Source: Thermoleptolyngbya sichuanensis A183 (GTDB lineage Bacteria > Cyanobacteriota > Cyanobacteriia > Elainellales > Elainellaceae). Taken from it: a stretch of 64,000 nucleotides of DNA. Below, in pieces: positions 6,633 to 41,126 of this stretch. The stretch is from positions 1,860,001 through 1,924,000 of the forward strand of contig NZ_CP053661.1 in the NCBI RefSeq assembly GCF_013177315.1, read 5' to 3'. A program made the translations under genes and the position numbers. The notes below the pieces were generated by a model. It was not told where the DNA came from. It was given only the letters and a program-made list of their open reading frames with translations, and searched no databases. Within the stretch, counting starts at the first letter, position 1; every line of letters starts with the position of its first letter.

Positions 6633-6859
6633 TAGGGTCTCGCTGCGGACTGATCAAGCAAACTGGTTTTTGCTAGCCCAGCATTTACTAGCCCAGCATC
6701 TAGGAGTGGCTAGGGCAGAGCTTCTGGGATTTGACTTGGCCTTTACACGGTTTTTTCTGCTGAAAGGATGAGGAGGAGAGCGATGTGCGCCGCTTATCTT
6801 AATAGTATTCCCGCTTCGAGCTATGGTAGGAGCGGTCAACCCCGGAGGATAGAGGAGCC

Positions 6860-7603
6860 GTGACGCAGTTTTTATTCATTACCGACCTGGATCATACGCT
6901 GGTAGGCGATGATGAAGCAATGGCGCAGCTCAACGAGGCGCTCGATTGGCATCGCCGCACCCACGACACCAAGATTGTCTACTCGACGGGGCGATCGCCC
7001 TCGCTGTATCAGCAACTCCTGTCGGAAAAGCCTCTGCTGCCCCCTGATGCCGTTGTCACAGGTGTCGGCACGGCTATCACCTATCCCGACGGCAGCCCCG
7101 ATTCCCTCTGGTGGGAAAAGCTGAGCGATGGCTGGTCGCGCGATCGCGTTCTGTCCACCGTTGCCCATTTTGCAGATTTGGAGCTTCAGCCCGCAGAGGA
7201 GCAAAACGAGTTTAAGGCAAGCTATTTTCTGGATGCGGCGATCGCCCCTGATTTGCTGCCTGAGCTAGAAGCCGCCCTCCAGTCCCAAGGCTTGCAGATC
7301 AACCTAGTCTACAGCGGCGGCCGCCACCTCGACATCTTGCCCCAAAGCGCCAACAAAGGGCTAGCGATGGTGTTTTTGCGGCAGCAGTGGGGCTTTGAGC
7401 CAGAGCGCACCGTGGCCTGTGGCGATTCGGGCAACGACCTGTCAATGTTCATGATGGGCGAAGAGCGCGGCATTATCGTCGGCAATGCCATGCCCGAACT
7501 GCGCCAGTGGCATCAGGAAAACCTCGCCCCGCACCGCTATCTGGCAGACGGTCACTGCGCTGCGGGCATTCTGGAAGGACTGGATTACTTCGACTTTTTG
7601 TAA
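6860..7603 (+). CDS. spp: Sucrose-phosphate phosphatase (HAD family)
   Basis: A 247-residue haloacid-dehalogenase phosphatase that hydrolyses sucrose 6-phosphate to sucrose, the second step of cyanobacterial sucrose synthesis. HAD motif I is DLDHT, with Asp9 as nucleophile and Asp11 as acid/base. Motif II is YSTGRS and motif IV is CGDSGNDLSMF. The substrate region YSGGRHLDILPQSANKG is typical of SPP. The length equals the stand-alone family. The start is a GTG at 6860 preceded by GGAGGATAGAGGAG. Sucrose-phosphate synthase is not adjacent. Confidence 0.88.
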   Translation: MTQFLFITDLDHTLVGDDEAMAQLNEALDWHRRTHDTKIVYSTGRSPSLYQQLLSEKPLLPPDAVVTGVGTAITYPDGSPDSLWWEKLSDGWSRDRVLSTVAHFADLELQPAEEQNEFKASYFLDAAIAPDLLPELEAALQSQGLQINLVYSGGRHLDILPQSANKGLAMVFLRQQWGFEPERTVACGDSGNDLSMFMMGEERGIIVGNAMPELRQWHQENLAPHRYLADGHCAAGILEGLDYFDFL

Positions 7604-7637
7604 CGCTGGGCTAAAGGTTGTAACGCTGGGCTAAAGG
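7598..7637. repeat. 20-bp perfect duplication across the spp stop codon
   Basis: TTGTAACGCTGGGCTAAAGG occurs twice in direct succession. The first copy contains the spp stop codon TAA at 7601-7603. Confidence 0.92.
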
Positions 7638-7656
7638 CCAGTAGAGGACAGCAGAG

Positions 7657-8244
7657 CTACTGTCCCGCGCTGAGGACCTGGGCAGCGGTCAGGTTCAGCG
7701 CTGGGAAGGTAGGCGACTGGAGGGGGCACTCGCCCGTGTAGCGTCCCGCTTCGATATATTCCCCCTGCTCTAGCCGCAGCACCAGCACCGCCTGCTCTTC
7801 TGGGTCAACAATCACGTATTCGGGAATGCCCACCGCTGCGTATTGTGCCCGCTTGCGAATGTAATCGCGATCACGGTTCGTTTTGCCTGGGCTGACCACC
7901 TCCATCACCCACAGCGGCGGCGGCATCTCCAGCGTAATGGTCATGCGGCGATCGCACAAGGCTCGGTGTTCCTCTCGAATCAGCACTAGATCGGGATACC
8001 GATTGGCCGCATCTCTGGGTTCCAACACGGGCGTTTGCACCTCGCAGGAATAGAGCTTCAGCAGATAATGCGGAATGGCGATCGCCAGTAGCGATGAGAA
8101 CACAAAGGTTGCAATTTCGGTGTTGATTCTGGATTCCGGTGGCAAGGCGATCAGTTCTCCCTCGATCAGTTCGGCGCGTCCTTCAATGCCTGTGTCCTCC
8201 AGCGCCAGATAGTCGGCAAAGGTCAGCTTTTGGGTAAACGTCAT
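7657..8244 (-). CDS. Uma2 family PD-(D/E)XK endonuclease-like protein, copy A
   Basis: A 195-residue Uma2 (DUF820) protein, a family greatly expanded in cyanobacteria with a predicted restriction-endonuclease fold and mostly unknown function. Core motifs are RYPDLVLI, then VMEVVSPGKTNRDRDYIRKRAQYAAVGIPEYVIVDP, carrying the conserved Asp, Glu and Lys. A good AGGAGG site precedes the ATG at 8244. Copy B lies immediately upstream on the same strand. Residues 1-17 match copy B exactly and residues 101-195 match with one difference, whereas residues 18-100 are clearly diverged. Confidence 0.88.
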   Translation of the reverse strand: MTFTQKLTFADYLALEDTGIEGRAELIEGELIALPPESRINTEIATFVFSSLLAIAIPHYLLKLYSCEVQTPVLEPRDAANRYPDLVLIREEHRALCDRRMTITLEMPPPLWVMEVVSPGKTNRDRDYIRKRAQYAAVGIPEYVIVDPEEQAVLVLRLEQGEYIEAGRYTGECPLQSPTFPALNLTAAQVLSAGQ

Positions 8245-8289
8245 GGCGATTGCCCTCCTGGTTATTTGCTTTACCTGCTTTACACGCAG

Positions 8290-8883
8290 TCAGCCGTCTT
8301 GCCCCGCGCTGAGGACCTGGGCGGCGGTCAGGTTCAGCGCAGGGAACGTGGGCGACTGGAGGGGGCGCTCGCCTGTGTAGCGTCCCGCTTCGATATACTC
8401 CCCCTGCTCTAGCCGCAGCACCAGAACCGCCTGCTCTTCTGGGTCAACAATCACGTATTCGGGAATGCCCACCGCTGCGTATTGTGCCCGCTTGCGAATG
8501 TAATCGCGATCGCGGTTCGTTTTGCCTGGGCTGACCACCTCCATCACCCACAGCGGCGGCGGCATCTCCAGCGTGATTGTCATGCGCTGACTAGGATGGG
8601 CGCGATGCACTGGCTCCACCACCACCAAATCGGGATAGCGATTTGCCGCGTCGCCCACCTCTAAAACAGGCGTTTGCAGTTCGCAGCTATTCACCTTCAC
8701 ACGCTGAAATGGAACCCCAATTGCCACCAGTTGCAAAAACACAAACATGGCAATGTCGTTGTTTAACCAGGCTTCTGGTGGCAAGGCGATTAGTTCTCCG
8801 TTAATCAACTCCAGCTTTTCTTCCTGCCTAGAGTCCTCCAGCGCCAGATAGTCGGCAAAGGTCAGCTTTTGGGTAAATGTCAT
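8290..8883 (-). CDS. Uma2 family PD-(D/E)XK endonuclease-like protein, copy B
   Basis: A 197-residue paralogue of the downstream copy A, collinear without gaps and two residues longer at the C terminus. It holds the same predicted nuclease core: RYPDLVVV, then EVVSPGKTNRDRD and EYVIVDPEE. Only 45 bp separate the two reading frames, so they are probably co-transcribed. Identity is concentrated at both ends and low in the middle, the pattern left by gene conversion at the ends or by selection for diversity in the middle. Biological role is unknown for the family. Confidence 0.88.
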   Translation of the reverse strand: MTFTQKLTFADYLALEDSRQEEKLELINGELIALPPEAWLNNDIAMFVFLQLVAIGVPFQRVKVNSCELQTPVLEVGDAANRYPDLVVVEPVHRAHPSQRMTITLEMPPPLWVMEVVSPGKTNRDRDYIRKRAQYAAVGIPEYVIVDPEEQAVLVLRLEQGEYIEAGRYTGERPLQSPTFPALNLTAAQVLSAGQDG

Positions 8884-8940
8884 GGCGATCGCCTCTACAG
8901 GTTGCAGGGCCCGAATTGTCTTCGATCATAAGTCACTTAA

Positions 8941-9111
8941 GATGGAGTCAGTGTCTACTACACAGCCGCCGACGGTGTGTATGTAGCGGGCGATCGCAGC
9001 CTCACGTTTCCAATGCTCTCGGTCGAGCAACTCAGTGACTGGGTGGAGCGTGGCAAACAGTCGAAAAATCACAACGCGCTAATCCAAGAACTCCGGGCAT
9101 CACTCCGGTGA
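8941..9111 (+). pseudogene. Possible Uma2 C-terminal remnant
   Basis: An open frame from 8941 to the TGA at 9109-9111 reads, in part, LTFPMLSVEQLSDWVERGKQ and ends NALIQELRASLR. The pattern of FP...L...W...G followed by a terminal LRxxL resembles the C-terminal tail of many Uma2 proteins. There is no ATG at its beginning (only GTG at 8977) and an in-frame stop immediately precedes it, so the N-terminal nuclease core is missing. It lies on the opposite strand to the two intact Uma2 genes. The family call is inference from motif spacing. Confidence 0.4.
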
Positions 9112-37728: not shown

Positions 37729-38526
37729 CTATTGGGGCGATCGCTGCGATAGGTTTGGCGGAGCGATGGGCAGTTCAGCCGCAATGTTGCTCAACCCAAC
37801 GGAGTTCAGCAAATTTTGCCATTGGGTCACGATCGCCCCATCGGTGGGCTGGCGATAGGGGTCTGTGAGGCTGGCGATCGCCTCGTACCAGATGCCAGAG
37901 CGGGCATAGAGCGCGGGCAAATCGGCAGGGCTGGTCGTGGCGATCGCTGCGGCCAATTCCGCTGAAGGCTGCACACGCTGAATCCAGCTATCCACCACCA
38001 GGTTGCCCGACGGGTCGTTGGGGTCGCAAACCAGGGCAAAGCTCCAGTGATAATCGCGCCCGATTTCCAGGGGAGCCATGTTCGCTTCGGCAGGCAAGCT
38101 GATGCGGAGAATGCCAGACTGATTGCCCGTGCTGAAGCTGGTGCGATAGATTTCGGTGTCTTGGTCGTCGGTCAGGATTAGCTCGGCTGCGGCGGCTTTT
38201 TCAGCATAGGCAGCCGGAACGTAGACGAAAAAGGTGGGATATTCGCTGAGGGTATAGCCCAGGTTTTGTGCCGGAACGATAGCTGTGAGGCGGTTCTGTT
38301 CACCGGGAACTGCGCTTGTCCAACAGCCGCGAGTGCCGCCGCCTTCGCGCCGTCCGGGCAGGCCGCGGTTGGGGGGAACGTAGTCCTGCGCCAGCGCTGT
38401 GATGGGGACACTGCCGAGGGTGATGCCAAGGGCGATCGCCGCTAGAAAGGCTTTGGCGAGGGGTTTGCAAGCCGACTGTACCACAGCAGAGAAGAGAGAC
38501 AAGCGTTTGGAGGGAAGGTGAATCAT
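37729..38526 (-). CDS. Exported DUF928 protein
   Basis: A 265-residue protein with a signal peptide (residues 25-46, likely cut after ITALAQ). The DUF928 core follows: GLPGRREGGGTRGCW, LTAIVPAQNLGYTLSEYPTFFVYVP, AELILTDDQDTEIYRTSF, GRDYHWSFALVCDPNDPSGN and VDSWIQRVQ. DUF928 is a cyanobacterial family of secreted beta-rich proteins, often near CHAT or adenylate/guanylate-cyclase proteins; no such gene is adjacent here. Function unknown. Confidence 0.85.
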   Translation of the reverse strand: MIHLPSKRLSLFSAVVQSACKPLAKAFLAAIALGITLGSVPITALAQDYVPPNRGLPGRREGGGTRGCWTSAVPGEQNRLTAIVPAQNLGYTLSEYPTFFVYVPAAYAEKAAAAELILTDDQDTEIYRTSFSTGNQSGILRISLPAEANMAPLEIGRDYHWSFALVCDPNDPSGNLVVDSWIQRVQPSAELAAAIATTSPADLPALYARSGIWYEAIASLTDPYRQPTDGAIVTQWQNLLNSVGLSNIAAELPIAPPNLSQRSPQ

Positions 38527-39020
38527 AGCAAGGATAGAGTGACGACAGAAGTCCGAGGCGAGAGAGGGAGGGCTAGAGGTGGCTGTACTGGTGGCTGTAC
38601 TGGTGCTGTATTAGTGGCTGTACTGAGGAACGGGGCAAGCGATGCTGTCAGCACTTATTACTCCCAAATCCATTGATACACACTCAACCGCTAACCTCCA
38701 ACGCCCCTCCAAATAGATTCACGATGGATGGGGGCCAGTCCGCAGTGAGCAGCACCTCATATCCGCTGCTTACGATTCTTATGCCAAATCTCGATAAATC
38801 TCGATGATTGATGCAGGGATTGATGCAGGCGCTTGACAGCGGAGAGATCAGGATGTGGGGTATGATGCGGCAGTTATCGCGGCCGTCAACGCGGTTATCG
38901 ATGCGCTTATCAATTGCGGCTGTCAATGCGCTGGTCAATTACAACTGAGCCGGGACAATCAGCGGTATATTATTCGGTCAGAGTCAATATACCAAAGGGC
39001 ACGTTACACCAGGAGCGGAT
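38527..39020. other. Divergent spacer between DUF928 and GATase-like genes
   Basis: About 490 bases. At 38575-38628 there are four copies of a ~12-bp unit (GTGGCTGTACTG, one of 11 bp). At 38877-38940 there is a degenerate repeat of GCGGCCGTCAACGCGGTTAT type. No supported gene. Promoters for both flanking genes are expected. Confidence 0.55.
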
Positions 39021-40421
39021 ATGAGCTTAGCCAATACACCCCAGGCGCTACATCCAGCAGCCCAAACGAGCCAGTGGCGGCTGCGTCCGGGCTATCTGAG
39101 CGAAGGAGATTCGGATTTTGAATCAGTGCATGTGCTGATTGGGCAGTTTTTGGCCGATCGCCATTCGCCTGACCCCCTACCCGATGACTCCCTCTTGACC
39201 GAAAACACCGAATTTCGATGGGGAGCGCAGAAACCCCTGGAAAAGGTGATTGCTTCCCAGGCAGAGCTAGATTTTTTGCTGCAACATCCGGCGCTGTTTC
39301 GCAGTGCGATCGCCATTATTGAACCCTGGGAACACGTCGGGCGAAACCCCCTCGGAGAAGGGGTGCGAGCTTCTCTCAACGTGGCCTACATCGCCCAGAA
39401 GATTGCCGATTGCGATTCCATCTTGTTCCCCATGTGGTCGTCGGGGCTGCTCGACCTGGATGTGGTGGTGCCGCTGATCACCGCTGGGCTGGCCGTCGTG
39501 GTAGAAGGCGGCGATCCGTCGGTTCGGGATGCCTCTACGTTTGATGGGGCCCAGTGTTCCCTGGAAGACCTGCATCGGCTGGTTGAGCGGCTGCTGATCT
39601 CGCGATCGCCCACCAGTGCGCTGGCGCTGTTCATCTGTCTGGGGCATCAATTGGCGGCGCAGGCGCATATTAACCTGATTAAACAAGCCGTCCGGGAGGT
39701 GCTAAGTCTGGACTCGCTGCCCCGCGATCCGGATGGAAAAATGCTAAAGGCTTTGCGGCGGGTGTGCCAGCGCATCGAAGCGATCGGCAGTTCGCTTAAG
39801 ATTACCAAGCGCAATGGCCATGTGATTGCCGAGGGCTGGGATCATCCAGAGTTTGCGGTGGGGCCGAACGAACACAAGGAAGTGGGCGATCGCCAGCTTC
39901 ATCACTACCAATCCCCCGATGGCGACGCGCAGGGCATTCCCGAAGAGCTAATCACTGCCCATGAAATCACCGCTGACCAGTACGAAGGCGTGATTGATAC
40001 CGCCATTGAGTATGAGCGCGAAATCAACATCGCCATGTTTCACTCGGACGAGGTGAACGAAGAAGCCATCCTGTTTGCGAACTGGGCCTACCGACTGCTG
40101 CACGATGCCATGATTCCCTACCGCTCGGTGATTGCGGGGAGCCGTCTGGCGTGGCTGCTGAAGCTGCCGGATGCGGTGGAGATCCTGTGTTCCACGACGA
40201 TCGGCGAGGAAGTTGTTACCGAGTGTTCTGCAACGTGCATCATCTATCGAGATTTTGAAAGCAAGCAGGTGCGCCGCTCGTTCACCTGCCAGTTTCACCC
40301 AGAGCTTCTATCAGATTTGCGGGCCGTGGGGCATTCTGCGCCGCCCAGCTATGCACAGCTGAAGGCCGACGATGGCGCACGGCTGTTTGCCCGCCTGCTG
40401 TACGAAGGGATGCAGGAATAG
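39021..40421 (+). CDS. Glutamine amidotransferase-like protein with large insertion
   Basis: A 466-residue protein I cannot assign to a named family. It contains class I glutamine amidotransferase motifs: a nucleophile-elbow sequence LALFICLGHQLAAQ with Cys206, and FTCQFHPELL with His426 and Glu428, the usual Cys-His-Glu triad. In ordinary GATase domains Cys and His lie about 90 residues apart. Here ~220 residues intervene, implying an insertion of roughly 125 residues that includes VIAEGWDHPEFAVGPNEH and EYEREINIAMFHSDEVNEEA. The N-terminal 195 residues look Rossmann-like, with alternating hydrophobic strands. No synthase partner is adjacent. Activity and substrate unknown. Confidence 0.7.
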   Translation: MSLANTPQALHPAAQTSQWRLRPGYLSEGDSDFESVHVLIGQFLADRHSPDPLPDDSLLTENTEFRWGAQKPLEKVIASQAELDFLLQHPALFRSAIAIIEPWEHVGRNPLGEGVRASLNVAYIAQKIADCDSILFPMWSSGLLDLDVVVPLITAGLAVVVEGGDPSVRDASTFDGAQCSLEDLHRLVERLLISRSPTSALALFICLGHQLAAQAHINLIKQAVREVLSLDSLPRDPDGKMLKALRRVCQRIEAIGSSLKITKRNGHVIAEGWDHPEFAVGPNEHKEVGDRQLHHYQSPDGDAQGIPEELITAHEITADQYEGVIDTAIEYEREINIAMFHSDEVNEEAILFANWAYRLLHDAMIPYRSVIAGSRLAWLLKLPDAVEILCSTTIGEEVVTECSATCIIYRDFESKQVRRSFTCQFHPELLSDLRAVGHSAPPSYAQLKADDGARLFARLLYEGMQE

Positions 40422-40438
40422 ACCGCAGCAAGACTGCT

Positions 40439-40480
40439 CAGGCCTGATTGCCTAAGCCTGAATGCGTAAGCCTAAATGCG
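40439..40480. repeat. 14-bp tandem repeat, about 3 copies
   Basis: A diverged unit at 40439-40452 is followed by TAAGCCTGAATGCG and TAAGCCTAAATGCG. It lies between the convergent GATase-like and membrane-protein genes. Confidence 0.75.
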
Positions 40481-40514
40481 CGCGAATGGCGGCCAGTGCG
40501 GAGGGTGCTGGACG

Positions 40515-41126
40515 CTAGCCCTGTTCTGGAAGGACTGGAAGGCTGGGAACCGTCGGGAAGCGCTTGGGCAGCAGCGCATATCCCCAACCCACCAGGCGAC
40601 GCAGAAATTTAGAGAGACTCTGGGGACGGGCGATCGCCCACACATTTAGCCCCAGGCAGAGGCCGCCCAGCCCCGTCAGCACAAAGGTCGGCAGCATCAC
40701 CACGCCCACCACAAACCAGGTAAGGATGTGCAGAAGCATGAGGACGGCGTAAAGGCTGGCAGCGCTAGTAATCCAGCGGATGGTTGAACGGGGGCGATTG
40801 CAGCCGACAAAGATTAAGGTTTGCAGCGTTGCCAGCAGGTTTGCCGGAACCAGCATCGCGCAGATCGCGAGACAGTATGTACGCGAAAAGTCGCCCATTG
40901 CCCCAAAGGTGGCGAGGTCAGACGGGGCGATCGCCGAGTGCATTGCAGCGGAATGAACCATGCCCAAAGGCAGTGCGCCCAGGTCAGATGCGGGGGCAAG
41001 CAGCGAAGCACCCGATAGCACGGCTGAGAATAGGTCGATGGCAGACATTTCTAAAAACCAGGAAATCCCAAATACAAGAGGGGCGTTTGCAACGGGTTTC
41101 CGCAGAAGAATCGCCGCTAGCAGCAC
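40515..41126 (-). CDS. Integral membrane protein of unknown family
   Basis: A 203-residue hydrophobic protein with about four membrane segments: residues ~30-55 (less certain), 85-107 (TYCLAICAMLVPANLLATLQTLIFVG), 118-150 and 150-167. The C-terminal ~30 residues are basic and cytoplasmic-looking. An in-frame ATG at 41045 would remove the first 27 residues and is an equally plausible start. No family was recognised. It sits between convergent GATase-like and upstream ispH genes on the ispH strand. Confidence 0.6.
   Translation of the reverse strand: MLLAAILLRKPVANAPLVFGISWFLEMSAIDLFSAVLSGASLLAPASDLGALPLGMVHSAAMHSAIAPSDLATFGAMGDFSRTYCLAICAMLVPANLLATLQTLIFVGCNRPRSTIRWITSAASLYAVLMLLHILTWFVVGVVMLPTFVLTGLGGLCLGLNVWAIARPQSLSKFLRRLVGWGYALLPKRFPTVPSLPVLPEQG

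Follow-up and report, generated by a model that had tools for sequence, protein, structure and literature searches.

The window analyzed here, a stretch of 64,000 nucleotides of DNA, carries at positions 39021 to 40421 (forward strand) an intact open reading frame (ORF) that starts with ATG and encodes P0001, a 466-amino-acid protein resembling class I glutamine amidotransferases (GATases). Its features are listed below; the boundaries of the core and of the additions are our own reading of secondary structure and motifs.

39021 to 40421, + strand: gene for the class I GATase-like protein P0001; intact ORF, 79 related loci, dN of 0.10 to 0.12, dS of 1.6 to saturated
39021 to 39299, + strand: N-terminal extension, residues 1 to c. 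93, ahead of the predicted GATase core; invariant W19, R20, R47, W67, P72, E74, and P90
39507 to 39512, + strand: Gly163-Gly164, predicted oxyanion-hole turn; 83 of 83 rows
39633 to 39650, + strand: nucleophile elbow ICLGHQ (Cys206, His209, and Gln210); 83 of 83 rows; predicted strand 201 to 206, then helix 207 to 229
39669 to 39854, + strand: addition 1, residues 217 to 278, predicted helical hairpin (two helices) plus beta-hairpin; least conserved stretch (mean of 0.574)
39867 to 39881, + strand: N283-E284-x-x-E287; NE kept throughout, E287 altered in the short paralog
39915 to 40019, + strand: addition 2, residues 299 to 333, helical in the secondary structure of the model
40035 to 40055, + strand: motif III, MFHSDEV (residues 339 to 345); M339, F340, H341, E344, and V345 invariant in alignment A1
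40059 to 40136, + strand: addition 3, predicted long helix from residue 347 to c. 372 (EEAILFANWAYRLLHDA...); among the best conserved stretches
40296 to 40304, + strand: His426-Pro427-Glu428, predicted catalytic His and Glu; 81 of the 81 rows with a residue there

Both motifs named in the original prediction can be read directly in the ORF, with Cys206 lying within FICLGHQ and His426 and Glu428 within QFHPE, so that P0001 has the C-x-G-x-Q elbow and the HPE of the class I GATase triad; the separation of about 220 residues between Cys and His that it described is indeed 220. In an alignment of 83 rows, which includes the query itself and a few duplicated contigs (L080, L081, L082, and L085), Cys206, His209, Gln210, Gly163, Gly164, and His341 occur in all 83 rows, and His426 and Glu428 occur in all 81 rows with a residue there (the ORFs of L011 and L021 end early). 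The same residues are invariant in alignment A1, which comprises 45 rows that are 46 to 85% identical to P0001. A shorter paralog found in five genomes (395 amino acids, 36% identical over 392 positions) also keeps the GG pair, the Cys, His209, Gln210, Asn283-Glu284, His341, His426, and Glu428, and it differs from P0001 at E287, M339, and D343. As the Cys/His/Glu motif is near universal across the 83 aligned rows, its match is not a chance one, and the conservation in homologs that the original prediction proposed to check was borne out. The oxyanion role of Gly163-Gly164 is one that we assign by analogy with GMP synthase (GMPS). MFHSDEV presumably corresponds to the glutamine-contacting SHGD-V motif of GMPS, a match of our own making; the GuaA of this genome has MSHGDSV at the equivalent place, and two picocyanobacterial copies of the family have FHSDVV.

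Upstream of the gene lies a minus-strand gene for a DUF928 protein (PF06051; window positions 37729 to 38526). The minus-strand ORF at 40515 to 41126, which adjoins ispH, encodes a 203-amino-acid protein that by eye appears to span the membrane several times; it has no Pfam match and was matched in 12 of the 12 relatives searched, mostly over part of its length. The two genes on each side of the window copy include none for an MscS channel, a bestrophin, or an EF-hand protein; TrkA-like and TrkH-like genes, recognized by eye, lie 4 to 6 kb away. A promoter and terminator scan of positions 38500 to 40560 returned one of each, both on the minus strand and no more than in shuffled sequences. A search against Rfam of 15 loci with flanks of about 1.5 kb gave only tRNA-type matches, in L082, and no riboswitch or other RNA. 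NtcA sites upstream numbered 4 of 56 versus 5.2 in shuffles, and as they were not enriched, there is no sign of nitrogen control.

Predicted fold and placement of the extra length

The AlphaFold2 model of P0001 built with alignment A1 (pLDDT of 89.3 and pTM of 0.92) retrieved GMPS subunit A (2a9v) as its top Foldseek match in the PDB (E of 1.8e-5, probability of 1.00), with six chains at E of 0.001 or less. VIA-align, run on the chains ranked highest by Foldseek, gave Z values of 14.3 to 16.8 among its best 50 rows, which are mostly class I GATases plus fold relatives such as homoserine trans-succinylase and gamma-glutamyl peptidase; rows less than 1 Z apart are ties, and the nearest GATase subfamily was therefore left unranked. 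Small chains are covered whole by the model, including TrpG (1qdl_B, 193 of 195 residues at 2.6 Å) and 2d7j (186 of 188 residues at 2.6 Å), and a viral fold library yielded one match at E of 0.001 or less, a GATase of Yasminevirus (E of 1e-4, 10% identity). The superposition on GATase structures suggested in the original prediction, in which whole TrpG and GMPS subunit A chains align, thus points to a class I GATase fold, and Cys206 and His426 would lie close in space, as judged from these whole-chain superpositions.

As we read the model, the core comprises beta1 (residues 96 to 100), the GG turn (163 and 164), the strand leading to Cys206 (201 to 206), a strand from about residue 280, motif III (339 to 345), and HPE. 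The single long insertion between Cys and His that had been proposed is not what the model suggests; the pieces fall at 217 to 278, 299 to 333, and 347 to c. 372, and the extra length of P0001 would consist of an N-terminal extension and about three additions rather than one inserted domain. Similarly, what had been described as a Rossmann-like N-terminal half appears to be mostly the GATase core itself, with strands from residue 96 onward, leaving residues 1 to c. 93 as the true extension, of which residues 1 to about 33 are absent from the short paralog. Segment 205 to 338, modeled alone as a nonautonomous piece (pLDDT of 79.8 and pTM of 0.58), had no PDB match at E of 0.001 or less. The N-terminal extension and the helix at 347 to 376 hold invariant residues (7 of 75 and 6 of 30 positions, respectively) at rates like those of core stretches (10 of 64 and 6 of 59).

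The original prediction proposed a profile search with the insertion removed. Without residues 1 to 90 and 217 to 278, P0001 scored 23.5 bits against PF00117, compared with 17.6 bits for the full protein and a cutoff of 22.8. Two more extensive deletions brought the score to 21.4 and 22.2 bits, and control deletions of equal length at five different positions gave 21.5, 18.2, 17.9, 19.4, and 21.0 bits; as the controls also lift the score, the result is weakly diagnostic and favors our placement of the additions weakly.

Relationship to known families and systems

In its native form P0001 reaches the cutoff of no Pfam or NCBIfam model, including the PF00117 gathering score, in agreement with its original description as unassigned. 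PF00117 does match all 45 members at E of 1 or less (best, 5.2e-6; the bit scores given above are for P0001 alone), and its best stretch in P0001 is residues 205 to 226. The weak NCBIfam matches are spread over several GATase models, with at most 25 of the 45 members per model and a best E of 4.7e-4. No family listed for the 45 members other than PF00117 has a best E better than 0.03. Peptidase_C26 matched one member (E of 0.051), the NCBIfam gamma-glutamyl-CDP-amidate hydrolase model (GCDPHdlase) matched two (best E of 5e-4), and HTS, the MetA profile, is absent from the 10 families listed. For P0001 itself, a search of PDB sequences gave insignificant matches only (BAG3, E of 0.039; GMPS subunit A by profile, E of 1.6), PHROGs gave no match, and PADLOC returned no family among known antiphage defense proteins. 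Two candidate relationships tried with hhalign were rejected: GuaA/TrpG gave a short insignificant match (probability of 5.4, E of 0.007), as did the Peptidase_C26-like protein of the same genome.

The A1 profile matches this gene alone in its own genome, where PF00117 matches eight other places, seven of them over the cutoff. By eye these are TrpG/PabA, CarA, GuaA, PyrG, HisH, Peptidase_C26-like, PfpI-like, and PurQ, and thus the standard GATase roles appear to be served by genes of their own. The original prediction had also noted the lack of a synthase partner, and this holds: there is none among the four nearest genes in the window, no flanking family is conserved across relatives, and neither a fused nor an adjacent synthase of the GuaA, TrpG, CarA, PyrG, HisH, or PurQ systems nor any other domain was recognized. 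In this respect P0001 resembles stand-alone enzymes of the fold, such as Peptidase_C26 and GGP.

The likeness to the GATase of GMP synthase (the N-terminal part of GuaA; 2a9v and 4win) extends to the predicted fold, the Cys-His-Glu triad, the GG turn, and an SHGD-like motif III. However, that domain has about 190 amino acids compared with the 466 of P0001 with its N-terminal extension and three additions, its Cys-to-His spacing is 87 in the GuaA of this genome (Cys78 to His165 of the GuaA segment) compared with 220, and it works with a synthase, whereas no synthase domain or partner was seen for P0001. Gamma-glutamyl hydrolases and peptidases (Arabidopsis GGP1, 9k7l; PuuD, 6vtv; SpuA, 7d53) are stand-alone enzymes and have the fold predicted for P0001, which differs from them in carrying far more additions and in having no strong sequence match to them. 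The same fold is found in MetA, the homoserine trans-succinylase/acetyltransferase (2vdj, 2ghr, and 2h2w), which carries a triad. DnfC, the GATase of direct ammonia oxidation (8khs), is also alike in fold (Z of 16.1); the excerpts describing it place it in a dnfABC cluster, and no such cluster was noticed beside the P0001 gene in a general list of its neighbors. No description of the P0001 family was found among the literature matches listed, as far as the excerpts given there extend. Within the class I GATase superfamily, P0001 is a conserved and unnamed member whose additions are unusual.

Distribution and recurring neighbors

A scan of one genome per species yielded 94 confirmed stretches, of which the best 80 were kept, representing 79 loci. 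Counting genome matches at E of 0.001 or less, fragments included, the family occurs in 7 of 60 near relatives (the window's own genome counted, and one match a fragment), 18 of 386 cyanobacteria (own genome included), 14 of 140 genomes of the Halioglobus family (one a fragment), and 1 of 274 genomes in a sample of the gammaproteobacterial class, the one being the center genome. In two cyanobacterial families, it was found in 40 of 217 and 23 of 61 genomes, the latter count including short paralogs. The occurrence of the family is thus patchy. A quick tree of 86 proteins contains a gammaproteobacterial clade, a main cyanobacterial clade (support of 89), and a picocyanobacterial clade together with one record titled Rhodobacteraceae, the last being uncertain because of its long branches. 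The copy in L049, a bin titled Methylococcaceae, nests within the cyanobacteria, through either bin contamination or transfer. The dN and dS values listed above, obtained for P0001 against four orthologs, point to strong purifying selection on the family.

Broken copies are frequent in the near-relative, cyanobacterial, and two family samples. Two gene copies (L078, 6820 to 8360; L079, 4640 to 5930) are split by about 1.2 to 1.5 kb with transposase-like ORFs, TnpB-like by eye in L079. The short-paralog loci (L241, L242, L243, L244, and L245, at about 6835 to 9008) come from genomes of two genera, and transposase-like genes, again by eye, lie beside some of these copies. In the sole same-genus relative among the 60 near relatives (genome 85% complete), the genes downstream of the window copy are matched at 84% DNA identity and the gene itself is absent; the 1.5 kb on the gene side of the match is unlike the upstream flank in the window, and no DUF928 gene turned up in the 3.5 kb surrounding the ispH end. 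The GC and GC3 contents of the window gene are similar to those of its neighbors. Searches of plasmids and phages gave no match to the family, and one or the other of two short patterns was matched by 17 stretches of viral contigs, none of which was confirmed as a relative.

A single conserved operon partner was sought and rejected: the gene itself clustered in 81 loci, and the largest cluster of flanking genes spans at most 13 of them. We counted 102 of the 114 flanking proteins collected from the discovery loci, 12 having been dropped beforehand. Among these immediate neighbors, EF-hand was the first Pfam family (five proteins), with MscS at three. An EF-hand pattern occurs in 6 of 897 flanking ORFs, and five of the six are next downstream on the same strand at 17 to 135 bp. 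A follow-up look for channel genes in the discovery loci recovered MscS, bestrophin, Castor/Pollux, and K+-channel neighbors. One bestrophin and one MscS gene, checked against PDB sequences, matched at E of 1e-36 and 2e-34, respectively. Gaps on the same strand are as short as 10 bp (G1011), 17 bp (Crocosphaera watsonii WH 8501), and 24 bp (G024). In the record titled Rhodobacteraceae (L073, AG-457-F15), the copy is divergent and is followed after 59 bp by a same-strand MscS gene that is YnaI-like (PDB sequence, E of 3.5e-6).

As the seed families came from the discovery neighbors themselves, we set up a held-out test, fixed beforehand as the presence of genes from these families at rank 1 or 2 among the neighbors in new loci, compared with the genome background. 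Of 47 stretches fetched, we set aside 25 whose contigs were already in the discovery set, one from a genome represented there (L249), and five carrying the short paralog, and the remaining 16 formed the test set; in one of these (G003, a negative), 1.5 kb of flank had been seen before the test. The 16 genomes total 129 Mb, with 132 MscS, 46 EF-hand, and 35 bestrophin-like matches. By rank, an adjacent channel or EF-hand gene was present at 5 of the 16 loci (EF-hand in L217 and L221; MscS in L226, L232, and L237) and one within two genes at 6 (an EF-hand gene in L246 being added), compared with expectations of about 0.05 and 0.1 of 16 at one gene per kb. We also used a distance of 3.5 kb, a measure that was chosen after a first look at the held-out loci and that is independent of our gene calls. 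By this measure, MscS was found at 5 of the 16 loci (0.12 expected), EF-hand at 3 (0.036), bestrophin at 3 (0.028), and any of them at 7 (0.18; P of about 2e-10), and cutoffs of 0.5 to 10 kb gave 2 to 7 of 16 (P of 3e-4 to 2e-10). Three of the seven positives are congeners of discovery loci; without these three genomes, 4 of 13 loci remained at 3.5 kb (0.15 expected; P of about 1e-5) and 2 of 13 at 1 kb (P of 8e-4). These P values are optimistic, since the genomes were taken as independent and 12 of the 16 come from one family (f29). Among 85 held-out flanking proteins within three genes per side, MscS was the commonest Pfam family (five), followed by EF-hand (three), LysR (three), and CrcB (two).

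Counted over nonredundant loci within 3.5 kb, with Castor/Pollux and K+ channels included and some contigs short, such a neighbor occurs at 14 of 63 discovery cyanobacterial loci, 7 of 16 test loci, 2 of 17 gammaproteobacterial loci (one by pattern match only), 1 of 6 picocyanobacterial/alphaproteobacterial loci, and 0 of 5 short-paralog loci. Any link is therefore not obligatory, such a neighbor being absent at this distance in 9 of 16 held-out, 49 of 63 discovery, 15 of 17 gammaproteobacterial, and 5 of 5 short-paralog loci. Over all sets, 29 of 31 channel or EF-hand neighbors share the strand of the gene (P of 5e-7), and 16 of the 31 lie at gaps of 10 to 163 bp; the side, order, and gap vary. 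The cyanobacterial relatives thus adjoin MscS, bestrophin, and EF-hand genes more often than expected by chance, and this channel and calcium neighborhood is the most informative new fact about the family, although it is only partly general.

Some loci have further neighbors of note. Two kinds were not prespecified and were left out of the counts: an aquaporin Z gene beside the gene in L228, checked against PDB sequences, and two CrcB-type genes (by Pfam) directly upstream on the same strand in L238 (5974 to 6833). In L217 (3693 to 6377), an 894-amino-acid neighbor that by eye starts like a metacaspase or caspase-fold protein lies beside the EF-hand and MscS genes. One stretch of about 5 kb (G091:C141, 54134 to 59033) contains an EF-hand gene, a P0001-family gene, a gene that by eye is EamA-like, a piece of an MscS gene, a second fragment of the P0001-family gene, and a bestrophin piece, as though clusters of this kind assembled and decayed as units.

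Proposed role and alternatives

The explanation that we prefer, and hold with moderate confidence, is that P0001 represents an unnamed family of stand-alone class I GATase-fold enzymes that act on glutamine or a gamma-glutamyl amide and are used in ionic, osmotic, or Ca2+-linked responses. Cys206 would attack the gamma-carboxamide of glutamine or of another gamma-glutamyl amide to form a glutamyl-thioester, which would be resolved by water or by an acceptor bound at the family-specific N-terminal extension and additions, the products being glutamate and ammonia or an amine. The additions may shape a second site, and the enzymes are probably cytosolic. We infer glutamine or a gamma-glutamyl amide as the target from the sequence motifs, which cannot separate an amidotransferase from a glutaminase or a gamma-glutamyl hydrolase. 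That the enzyme works with the recurring channel and calcium-sensor neighbors in such responses, whether ionic, osmotic, or Ca2+-linked, is suggested less firmly than the chemistry; a shared neighborhood by itself does not show shared biochemistry.

Two alternatives have some claim on the evidence, and we consider both unlikely. P0001 might be a glutamine amidotransferase whose synthase either is encoded at another place in the genome or arises from the protein's own additions, with ammonia passing to an acceptor at the N-terminal extension and the inserts. The predicted glutamine-site motifs are kept, and the invariant residues in the extension and in helix 347 to 376 are what a second substrate site would show; however, conservation is lowest in addition 1, the 45 members show no recognizable ATP-binding or synthase domain, and no partner gene is conserved in the neighborhood. 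The second alternative concerns the neighbors, which could be incidental if the gene is a mobile accessory one residing in stress and transport islands, with an unrelated function. The patchy occurrence, the frequent broken copies, the transposase-like ORFs within two copies, the synteny break beside the gene in the one same-genus relative, and the majority of loci without such a neighbor would all fit this. It accords poorly with the held-out enrichment, which persists without congeners, with the shared strand and the short gaps, with the recurrence of three unrelated gene families, with the lack of a plasmid or phage match or of a confirmed relative in viral contigs, and with a base composition in the window gene that matches its neighbors.

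Less probable again is an acyltransferase or peptidase that reuses the fold and does not act on glutamine, as homoserine trans-succinylase/MetA and gamma-glutamyl peptidase reuse it. VIA-align ranks the MetA/HTS structures (Z of 14.5 to 14.7) and GGP1 (Z of 15.9) at most 2.3 Z below the best, and the few Peptidase_C26 and gamma-glutamyl-CDP-amidate hydrolase matches point the same way, whereas the missing HTS match and the resemblance of Q210 and MFHSDEV to the glutamine-site motifs of GMPS argue against it. A catalytically dead scaffold or regulator keeping the GATase shape might explain the high conservation of noncore residues and is very improbable, given that neither the triad nor the oxyanion glycines vary in the full-length alignment and that both persist in the 36%-identical paralog.

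Building on the preferred explanation of a stand-alone glutamine or gamma-glutamyl enzyme, we tentatively suggest, as an idea that we think doubtful at present, that the family may form a mix-and-match module with MscS channels, bestrophins, and EF-hand sensors, coupling Ca2+ or membrane tension to gamma-glutamyl (glutamine/glutamate) chemistry. A complex of bestrophin with glutamine synthetase has reportedly been described. Such a module might make glutamate locally for release through glutamate-permeable channels upon osmotic downshift or, alternatively, might take part in a stress-triggered response in multicellular cyanobacteria. In the excerpts of two reports, MscS-type channels are glutamate exporters in Corynebacterium and Bacillus methanolicus (PMC6110860 and PMC12541555), and local glutamate production is therefore one concrete version of the role of P0001.

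With P0001, one of the best-studied enzyme folds gains an unnamed family, whose distinctive additions may provide a second site within the protein itself. A testable physiological lead beyond the bare label of glutamine amidotransferase comes from the recurring neighbors, which hint at a role for the family in salt, turgor, or calcium responses. If the link holds, glutamine or gamma-glutamyl chemistry would be tied to mechanosensitive and calcium-linked channels in bacteria.
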